DNA from: Aggregatimonas sangjinii
GTDB taxonomy: Bacteria > Bacteroidota > Bacteroidia > Flavobacteriales > Flavobacteriaceae
Assembly (NCBI RefSeq): GCF_005943945.1
Contig: NZ_CP040710.1
Location: forward strand, 1,809,001-1,873,000
DNA: 64,000 nucleotides
Direction: 5' to 3'
This document shows, piece after piece, positions 61,502 through 63,598 of this stretch. The notes beneath the pieces are model-generated. The model did no database searches, had not been told where the DNA came from, and saw nothing but the letters and a program-made list of their open reading frames with translations. The translations under genes were made by a program, and so were the position numbers. Within the stretch, counting starts at the first letter, position 1. Each line of letters opens with the position of its first letter.

Positions 61502-63598
61502 ATGATGAAAAAACTTCTCCTTTTGCTTTTCGCTTTACCCCTTTTTACATTTGCAGTCGATACCCAGATTCCGTCTACGATCAAAGCGGTAACCGTATAT
61601 CTAAGTGGCGCCCATATCACCAGAACGGCCGAATGCCGTCTTCCTTCGGGAACATCGGAAATGGTCTTCACAGGACTTTCCACAAATATCGATGAAAGCA
61701 GTATTCAGATTTCCGGCCTACAGTCGGTTTCGATTTTATCGCTATCCTTTGACATCGATTATTTAGTAAAAGCGGTAACTACCTCCGAGTCCTCGGCCCT
61801 GCAATTGGAAATCGAGGGCTTACAAAACCAAATCGCCCTATTAAAAAATAAAATCTCCGGGCTCGAGGAAGAGGAGCAGGTAATTCATACCAATCGGGCG
61901 GTAAGCAGTAAGCTGCAGTCCTTCGATTTGGAAAAAATAAAAGCCGTAAGCAGCTACTACCGGGAGCGAATCACGGCGATAAAAGATGAAATTTTCAAAA
62001 ACAATCTGGAAATCAATTCGTTGGGCGTTACGATCCGAGCCGTACAAAAGCAAATGGCCGAAGCCAATAATGCCCCGGAAAAAGAACAGGGTGAGATTAC
62101 CATCAAATTCGACGCCCCTATCACCACTACCCTGGAATTGACCTTATCGTACGAGGTGGACAATGCCGGTTGGATACCGAACTACGAGTTCAAATCAAAA
62201 GACATCAATTCACCCTTGACTTTGGCCTACAAAGCGCATGTCTACCAAAAAACGGGCACGAATTGGGACAATGTAAAGGTTACCCTCTCTACCGGAAACC
62301 CGACTATCAATGTGGCCAAGCCCAACTTGGGAACGAAATATTTGAATTTTACGAACGGGTATCAAAATACAAGCACTAACAGTATAAAAAAGCGGAAATA
62401 TATGTACAATCCGACTGTAAAAGAAGTTTCTGGGGTCGTTTTGGATCAATCCGGAGCTCCTTTGGCGGGAGCCAATGTATTGGTCAAAGGGACTACAACG
62501 GGTACGACTACGGATTTTGATGGGCACTATTCCCTAAAGGTGCAACACGGGCAGGAATTGGTGATATCGTACATAGGTTTCCGTTCTGAAGTGCTCCCGA
62601 TTTACTCATCGGTAATGAACATAGGCCTGGAGGAGGATGCGTCGGCCCTTGAGGAAGTTGTTGTAACTGGATATGGCTCTAAAAAGCGGAACTTCACAAC
62701 CGGGTCCGTGAGTTCCGTATCTACTGAACGACTTTTACAGGGAAGGGCCGCAGGGGTAGAAATTCAAGGTACTTCATCGATAAAAGGGAAATCTTATATT
62801 TCCCCTTCACAATTGCCACTATATGTGGTGGATGGCGTTATTGTCGAGGGTTTTGTGGATGGCGATCTGGACATGGACGAAATACAATCCGTAAAGGTAC
62901 TAAAAGGCTCAAACGCCAATGCCCTTTATGGATATAATGGAGCAAAGGAAATCGTGGTGATTACAACCAAGAAGAGCACTATCCAGGACGATATTACCAA
63001 CACCAAATTCGTCATCAAAAAGCCGTATTCCATTGTTTCTGATGGCGATATTACCGCCATCGAAATCAACACCTTCACCTTAAACGCCAAATACGAATAC
63101 CTTGCGGTCCCCATTGTCAACGAAAATGTGTTCCTAACAACCACTTTCACTGATTGGGAGCAATACAATTTACTGCCCGGTGAAGCCAGTGTTTATTTTA
63201 AAGGCACCTATGCGGGAAAAACGACCATCGACCCTTACACCACCAAAAAGGAGATGACGGTTTCCTTGGGAATCGACCCTAATATTACGGTGACCAGAAA
63301 GCAAGACAGGAACTTTAAGAGCAAATCGTTTACCGGCAGCAATCGTATCCTGGACAAAACCTACGATTTGGAAATCAAGAACAACAAGGCCAAAACCGTC
63401 AACATCAGATTAATGGATAGAATTCCTATTTCCCAAAACAAGGATATCAAGGTAGACGATGTGGTGACAAACGATGCGGAATACGATAAAAAGACCGGCT
63501 TATTGACCTGGAAACTGCACTTGGCCGGTAATGAAGGCCTTACAAAGCGTTTTTCCTTTCAACTAAGGTACCCAAAATACAAGCGCATTTCACTTTAG
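61502..63598 (+). CDS. MuiA/DUF4139 protein with inserted SusC-type plug domain
   Basis: From ATG at 61502 the product has 698 residues with a signal peptide (1-18). DUF4140 covers about 25-125 and a coiled coil 95-190; DUF4139 begins near 200 (ITIKFDAPITTTLELTLSYE, NAGWIPNYEF) and resumes at about 500-698. Between, residues 307-385 form a carboxypeptidase-like domain (SGVVLDQSGAPLAGANVLVK) and 382-491 a SusC-type plug (EEVVVTGYGSKK, LLQGRAAGVEI, LPLYVVDGV, ALYGYNGAKEIVVITTKK) without its beta-barrel. This is a domain insertion. The protein is expected in the periplasm or at the outer membrane; the role is unknown. Confidence 0.9.
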   Translation: MMKKLLLLLFALPLFTFAVDTQIPSTIKAVTVYLSGAHITRTAECRLPSGTSEMVFTGLSTNIDESSIQISGLQSVSILSLSFDIDYLVKAVTTSESSALQLEIEGLQNQIALLKNKISGLEEEEQVIHTNRAVSSKLQSFDLEKIKAVSSYYRERITAIKDEIFKNNLEINSLGVTIRAVQKQMAEANNAPEKEQGEITIKFDAPITTTLELTLSYEVDNAGWIPNYEFKSKDINSPLTLAYKAHVYQKTGTNWDNVKVTLSTGNPTINVAKPNLGTKYLNFTNGYQNTSTNSIKKRKYMYNPTVKEVSGVVLDQSGAPLAGANVLVKGTTTGTTTDFDGHYSLKVQHGQELVISYIGFRSEVLPIYSSVMNIGLEEDASALEEVVVTGYGSKKRNFTTGSVSSVSTERLLQGRAAGVEIQGTSSIKGKSYISPSQLPLYVVDGVIVEGFVDGDLDMDEIQSVKVLKGSNANALYGYNGAKEIVVITTKKSTIQDDITNTKFVIKKPYSIVSDGDITAIEINTFTLNAKYEYLAVPIVNENVFLTTTFTDWEQYNLLPGEASVYFKGTYAGKTTIDPYTTKKEMTVSLGIDPNITVTRKQDRNFKSKSFTGSNRILDKTYDLEIKNNKAKTVNIRLMDRIPISQNKDIKVDDVVTNDAEYDKKTGLLTWKLHLAGNEGLTKRFSFQLRYPKYKRISL

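Follow-up and report, generated by a model that had tools for sequence, protein, structure and literature searches.

A SusC-derived module within a DUF4139 protein of Aggregatimonas sangjinii and its possible role as a TonB-facing appendage

TonB is the energy coupler of outer-membrane transporters. In the SusC protein Bt1763 the Ton box reads DEVVVTG and occupies residues 82-88, the N-terminal extension (NTE) of SusC corresponds to PF13715 and has an Ig-like fold, and deletion of the NTE is harmful, as described in the published report (PMC7782687). The other family relevant here is MuiA (TIGR02231), whose members combine the domains DUF4139 (PF13598) and DUF4140 (PF13600); a draw of 138 genomes from the phylum yielded DUF4139 in 57, and the literature searched offered no function for DUF4139/MuiA proteins. 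The name MuiA implies inhibition of mucoidy, and two papers mention the two terms together. The same kind of search, in which subscription journals were thinly covered, returned, among the matches listed, no report of a plug in a DUF4139 protein or of SusC plugs lacking a barrel.

The DUF4139 host protein and its inserted module

The window, a stretch of 64,000 nucleotides of the A. sangjinii genome, contains at positions 61502..63598 of the forward strand, on which the parts of the gene given below also lie, an ATG-initiated open reading frame encoding a MuiA/DUF4139 protein of 698 aa, identified by Pfam and NCBIfam matches. The protein starts with MMKKLLLLLFALPLFTFA and, judged by eye, has a hydrophobic Sec-type leader at its N-terminus; a simple pattern search of its first 32 residues found no lipobox cysteine, and L133 was the lone match to this pattern among the 116 homologues considered below. 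The host domains are complete, with scores above the model cut-offs: DUF4140 (residues 30-127, 61589..61882) reached 79.2 bits (cut-off 27), DUF4139 157 bits (cut-off 31.8) and the MuiA model TIGR02231 239.1 bits (cut-off 112.6). This is the single DUF4139 match in the genome.

The DUF4139 match spans 480 residues (213-692), yet uses the entire 205-position profile. Its first part covers residues 213 to about 276 (62138..62329), the latter limit being our chosen loop border, and its second part residues 497-692 (62990..63577), where TIGR02231 matches 489-696. Between them Pfam places a CarbopepD_reg_2 domain at 309-388 and a Plug domain (PF07715) at 403-480, the latter scoring 22.9 bits with hmmscan and 26.3 bits in the genome search against a cut-off of 23.9. 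The sequence-only reading that DUF4139 is split by an insert and resumes after it is thus borne out, as is the missing beta-barrel: Pfam matches up to E 1 include no barrel family, and DUF4139 fills the stretch after the plug to residue 692.

The proposed origin of the insert, a carboxypeptidase-like domain plus plug from a SusC protein, was likewise confirmed. The module (residues 307-492, 62420..62977) matches the SusC/RagA model TIGR04056 over residues 308-493 only (E 5.2e-52; 177.3 bits, missing the cut-off of 368.25), and the TIGR04057 signature gave 31.6 bits, below its cut-off of 46.2. The top matches among solved structures are SusC homologues over residues 309-492 (8aa4_A, E 1.3e-24) and RagA. 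All four expected motifs, VVVTGYG, LQGRAAGV, PLYVVDGV and ALYGYNGA, are present. The module comprises the NTE, a carboxypeptidase-regulatory-like Ig domain assigned to residues 309-381 (62426..62644; Pfam 309-388), followed by the Ton box LEEVVVTG at residues 383-390 (62648..62671), which is the sequence expected of a putative TonB client and is also recognised by our Ton block HMM. Next comes a stretch under looser constraint that contains the LQGRAAGV motif (residues 393-438, 62678..62815), and after it the plug's C-terminal half, PLYVVDGV ... ALYGYNGAKEIVVITTKKS (residues 439-492, 62816..62977), identified by the corresponding block HMM. Counted between the Ton box and the ITTKK strand, the window protein has 104 residues, with a median of 107 in 23 DUF4139 rows versus 126 in 73 SusC rows; the plug is condensed relative to SusC.

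By eye, the neighbours of the gene in the window resemble genes of the MutS2, DCC, ATP-grasp and similar kinds, and no SusC-size ORF adjoins it within the window; a polysaccharide-locus context was rejected on these two grounds. At 17 loci of relatives, many with only 1.5 kb of flanking sequence, a MutS2- or DCC-like gene was present in five (L004, L033, L035, L103, L107), a DUF1704-like neighbour in seven and a transporter-like gene in four, so that the surroundings are shared among relatives in part only. Elsewhere in the genome four TonB_C matches were found in three ORFs. One of these, at G000:C1:3510227-3510904 (L211, L213), is a 658-aa ORF with two TonB_C domains, which we take to be perhaps an M56-type protein.

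Loop variation, history and constraint among homologues

A draw of 397 genomes from the family of A. sangjinii was searched for nearly whole-protein matches with E below 1e-150. The full-length version was found in 45 of them (own genome included), in open frames of 677-746 aa, and all 45 genes carry the block for the C-terminal half of the plug; several of these genomes are single-contig. Other relatives are 600-660 aa long and still others 520-565 aa. Identities of 59-70% were found for six further records, of which one is partial. Among the relatives, three of six named records bear the name Maribacter, including the nearest (L032).

To compare the insertion site, 129 ORF hits were reduced to 116 homologues by removing four duplicates of the window gene (L001, L002, L068, L101), six fragments from disrupted or split reading frames (L203, L204, L205) and the three incomplete genes L010, L037 and L206. 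This set is non-random, since most members were fetched for matching the window protein and it is enriched for its relatives. From each homologue the loop matching window residues 276-503 was cut and searched with four block HMMs (NTE, Ton, LQG-IRG and plug C-half) made from 31 SusC-like proteins, a comparison blind to out-of-frame or reverse-strand insertions. The blocks were found in 89, 88, 59 and 59 of the 116 loops, respectively, compared with none for any block in the remainder of the same 116 proteins and 1, 1, 0 and 1 in 1160 shuffled stretches. SusC blocks therefore occur in DUF4139 loops far beyond chance.

The blocks are combined in various ways. All four are present in 35 of the 116 loops, and NTE, Ton and C-half without LQG-IRG in 20, while 28 have NTE and Ton without the C-half (including L153, whose loop is 57 aa long and whose NTE hit is weak and overlapping). 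Three (L131, L133, L195) combine LQG-IRG with the C-half and lack the NTE, and Ton alone was found in five, other mixtures in seven and no block in 18. The long-loop rows with NTE and without the plug C-half number 32, and 27 of these retain the Ton block. Loop length ranges from 51 to 265 aa with many intermediates; in the 25 loops shorter than 100 aa, Ton is the sole block in five. Over the whole set the Ton block went undetected in 28 of the 116 homologues. A DUF4139 protein from a different family of the phylum (L128) has an NTE followed by KEVVVTAERQ, a sequence that resembles the Ton box of non-SusC TonB receptors.

The history of the plug was analysed on 100 segments, comprising 23 from DUF4139 proteins, 73 from SusC and four from alpha-2-macroglobulins (A2M). 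The DUF4139 rows were the 21 of 59 plug-bearing rows in which the SusC plug profile was matched nearly end to end, plus the partial genes L010 and L037, and the SusC rows came from few genomes, many being chosen as nearest to query sequences. Repeat rows of twelve loci were removed because their DUF4139 genes were already included, twelve more rows were dropped beforehand (a window-gene copy, L202, L098, four far TonB receptors, one A2M and four of unclear host), and two rows were relabelled from SusC to DUF4139. A DUF4139 clade appeared in none of 200 bootstrap trees of the plug, and a single DUF4139 plug clade was rejected (delta lnL 147.5, p-AU 5.5e-5). On the NTE tree of the same 100 genes, a clade with support 97/91 unites 22 of the 23 DUF4139 rows, and the AU test does not reject a single NTE clade (p-AU 0.39), the NTE test being the less powerful one with 84 alignment columns versus 140 for the plug.

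By pairwise identity, the nearest NTE is another DUF4139 NTE for all 23 rows with near-complete plugs. The nearest plug is from DUF4139 in 17, tied in one and from SusC in five (L121, L164, L168, L170, L172), counted with the sister row excluded for L170/L172 and L160/L161; with its sister included the L170 plug is still nearer SusC (0.73 vs 0.68). The plugs of L164, L170 and L172 are 62-73% identical to a SusC from the same genome, and that of L172 is 69% identical to its own-genome SusC, equal to its sister L170, and 53% to the closest remaining DUF4139 plug. Between L121 and L160, identity is 76% in the NTE and 41% in the plug. The window's own plug is 58% identical to the nearest DUF4139 plugs and 50% to SusC, and thus as a whole shows no capture. 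Donor-pair AU tests were borderline: forcing the NTE with the donor SusC gave p 0.055 and 0.052, and a test of the plug subset of L170/L172 plus 13 others gave p 0.12.

Mapped on a tree built from the host domains alone, the distribution of the plug C-half requires 13 changes, compared with a shuffled mean of 38.9. The sequence directly after the Ton box occurs in two flavours, labelled here A (GYGxxKKxxxTGAVSSV) and B (GIKREKxALGYAVSSV), both of which occur in SusC proteins; 27 A and 10 B rows require nine changes on the host tree versus a shuffled mean of 9.06, i.e. they are scattered as at random. L003 (B) and L007 (A), which are sister genes, differ most in this stretch: they are 48-58% identical in DNA over L003 residues 391-431 versus 62-90% in other 15-codon windows, with a smaller dip in the linker 492-506. 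In the pair L034/L035, the tract 271-390 shows 67% DNA identity versus 87% upstream and 94% downstream; this is weak evidence for capture from SusC, because the nearest relatives of the tract are other DUF4139 genes and both sequences are metagenome assemblies. Judged from these trees and identities, a single acquisition of the NTE, followed by vertical inheritance with the host gene, is probable. Because the DUF4139 plugs are not one clade, the sequence after the Ton box was probably overwritten in part or wholly from SusC genes several times, or lost; gene conversion or recombination would be the means.

Selection was estimated from six close pairs out of 16 pairs, with the L034/L035 mosaic, a pair lacking the insert and more distant pairs left out. 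The host domains gave dN/dS of 0.06-0.08 and the NTE 0.13 (0.09-0.17), and the plug C-half (residues 438-492) also gave 0.13 (0.06-0.25) on 117 codons, almost all from the two plug-bearing pairs L160/L161 and L159/L166. The stretch between the Ton box and the plug C-half (392-437) has many gaps and a dN/dS of 0.36 (0.24-0.52). Purifying selection acts on the NTE and plug C-half, and the difference from the intervening stretch indicates that the folded parts are retained while the middle is loose. The Ton core EEVVVTGY (residues 384-391), with a dN/dS of 0.20 (95% 0.05-0.47) on 48 codons, is not measurably tighter than its flanks. Pooling all 16 pairs gave much the same dN/dS order, with dS partly saturated. 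An entropy profile was anchored on the motif, making it partly circular, and is not counted as evidence.

SusC-derived pieces in other barrel-less proteins

The motifs had been taken to occur otherwise only at the N-terminus of SusC channels, which proved wrong: barrel-less carriers are present in the same genome, and A2M proteins carry them in relatives. The A. sangjinii genome holds 46 Plug-model matches, and its plug or NTE proteins with no Pfam barrel match include a 666-aa YfbK-type VWA protein, in which the NTE is present and Pfam misses the plug because of its degeneracy, a protein of 209 aa that has two plug stretches, and proteins of 729, 585 and 191 aa. Four of these lie in a same-strand gene run (L098:1011-11091, contig about 2122010-2132090) whose members have an NTE and/or plug and no barrel match: the 585-aa protein (weak TPR match), the 729-aa protein, the YfbK-type VWA protein (L098:8453-10450, with a Sec-type leader by eye) and the 209-aa protein with its two mini-plugs. 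By eye, the run also includes a look-alike 581-aa neighbour and a peptidase-like gene. The 191-aa protein (L100:2147-2722), encoded a short way downstream of what by eye seems to be a sigma-factor gene, has mini-plug stretches, two by eye and one as a whole-protein Plug match. A 325-aa SusC N-terminal fragment with NTE and full plug and without barrel (L099:1819-2796), preceding a glycoside-hydrolase-like gene (by eye), is probably a SusC remnant.

In the 2190-aa alpha-2-macroglobulin L199, an NTE (1205-1284) and a Plug (1292-1391) lie between the bait-region and A2M domains. In a set of 34 A2M loops, made up of 30 loci and four chosen for their plug, 26 contain at least one SusC block and eight none, Ton being the commonest (23 of 34, or 19 of 30 without the four plug-chosen rows). 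Six of the loops (L274, L275, L277, L280, L281, L283), all without an NTE block, have SusC plug motifs in non-SusC order in the linker that precedes the A2M domain. There an IRG-type motif comes first and the Ton box last, with an LSGR-type motif between them in three of the loops, which reverses the arrangement seen in SusC. Among the DUF4139 loops, L151 is likewise out of order. These counts were obtained by reading the output of a regular-expression scan, which takes the NTE string VKGTT for IRG and had initially marked 11 A2M and 28 DUF4139 rows. As controls, one of 73 SusC rows was out of order, and shuffled loops with at least two motif kinds gave 0.02 (A2M) and 0.08 (DUF4139) rows per pass. 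It is unlikely that the misordered loops adopt the fold of a plug; this places weight on the Ton box and also on the idea of a tolerant insertion site.

Interpretation and comparison with known systems

The explanation favoured here, tentatively and just short of an even chance, is that the module may be a folded TonB-facing appendage on a periplasmic DUF4139 protein, with an NTE acquired once and a plug region repeatedly overwritten. A long variable loop of DUF4139 would carry the periplasm-facing half of SusC without its barrel, namely the Ig-like NTE, the Ton box and the plug in condensed form. The NTE would have been gained once and then passed on with the host gene, and the region downstream of the Ton box would have been rewritten several times from SusC genes, or lost. 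The Ton box may pair with the C-terminal domain of TonB, and through this pairing the DUF4139 protein would be positioned or pulled at TonB-ExbBD without being part of a transporter. As the NTE and Ton box are the commonest surviving elements, a TonB-facing appendage would be the most economical function, and the retained Ton box is read most naturally as a site for TonB docking; its retention may instead reflect shared ancestry rather than function.

A plausible, though less probable, explanation is that the loop is a permissive site fed with SusC pieces, of which the folded ones are kept to spare the host domain from misfolding and not for TonB. SusC N-terminal DNA is multicopy in these genomes, as the number of Plug-model matches in A. 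sangjinii illustrates, so recombination would keep supplying pieces. The continuum of loop lengths, the relaxed and gapped stretch between the Ton box and plug C-half, the non-SusC motif order in A2M loops and L151, the short-loop homologues that manage without the module, and the same kinds of pieces in the unrelated host A2M all fit such a site. The strong purifying selection on the NTE and plug C-half argues against it, as do the 27 of 32 rows lacking the C-half in which the NTE is accompanied by the Ton box.

An improbable possibility is that the working part is the Ig-like NTE, which would contact a partner or select among TonB paralogues, with the plug as a passenger. The NTE is the commonest block and appears to have a single origin, the several TonB_C matches in the genome would offer paralogues to choose from, and in Bt1763 loss of the NTE is harmful (PMC7782687), but plug blocks occur without an NTE block in L131, L133 and L195, and the plug C-half is equally constrained. 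The sequence-only reading had raised docking on a partner barrel or on TonB, and a role as a decoy or adaptor in outer-membrane transport. Docking of the plug in a SusC barrel, or another contact with SusCD in which it serves as decoy, inhibitor or adaptor, is quite improbable. The four SusC blocks do occur together in 35 of 116 rows, and the plugs of L164, L170 and L172 closely resemble SusC of the same genome; however, the window plug is condensed, a barrel already contains its own plug, and the module would be trapped between the DUF4139 halves. The 27 of 116 relatives with NTE and Ton box and no detectable C-half argue against docking as a general function. Finally, an assembly artefact or chimeric gene, for which the window gene gives no indication and which could in part explain only the L034/L035 mosaic, is exceedingly improbable given the full-length version in 45 of 397 family genomes, several single-contig and all with the plug C-half, and the six further records.

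Returning to the TonB-facing appendage, the module is present in three kinds of non-transporter envelope protein, which makes the idea of a TonB handle general and testable. In this wider form, which we regard as doubtful, non-transporter Bacteroidota envelope proteins (DUF4139, A2M and YfbK-type VWA) would have been fitted with SusC-derived TonB handles whose plug-side loops are continually gene-converted while the NTE and Ton box last. If this is true, TonB would power or position periplasmic proteins besides outer-membrane import, a conserved Ton box on barrel-less periplasmic proteins would widen the list of TonB clients, and a testable handle on DUF4139/MuiA proteins would be available. 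An inherited NTE beside a repeatedly replaced plug would also be a natural case of fragments from a large paralogous family entering unrelated hosts.

Compared with known systems, the window protein passes the cut-offs of the MuiA/DUF4139-DUF4140 families with its host domains complete, and differs from the 25 short-loop homologues (521-565 aa), which are without the module, a few having a Ton-like or LQG-like remnant. The module shares with SusC/RagA (TIGR04056; PDB 8aa4, 6sli, 5t3r) the order NTE, Ton box, plug, and is about 40-50% identical to SusC-size ORFs of its own genome; unlike SusC/RagA, the window protein has no barrel, its module is internal rather than N-terminal and its plug is condensed. 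The YfbK-type VWA proteins (L098:8453-10450 and L202) resemble it in having an NTE and Ton box with no barrel family matched, but their module is N-terminal, and the plug is above the Pfam cut-off in L202 only. The Bacteroidota alpha-2-macroglobulins, such as L199, contain the same internal module in a similar series of partial states, although the host is unrelated and the motif order differs in six of 34 loops.
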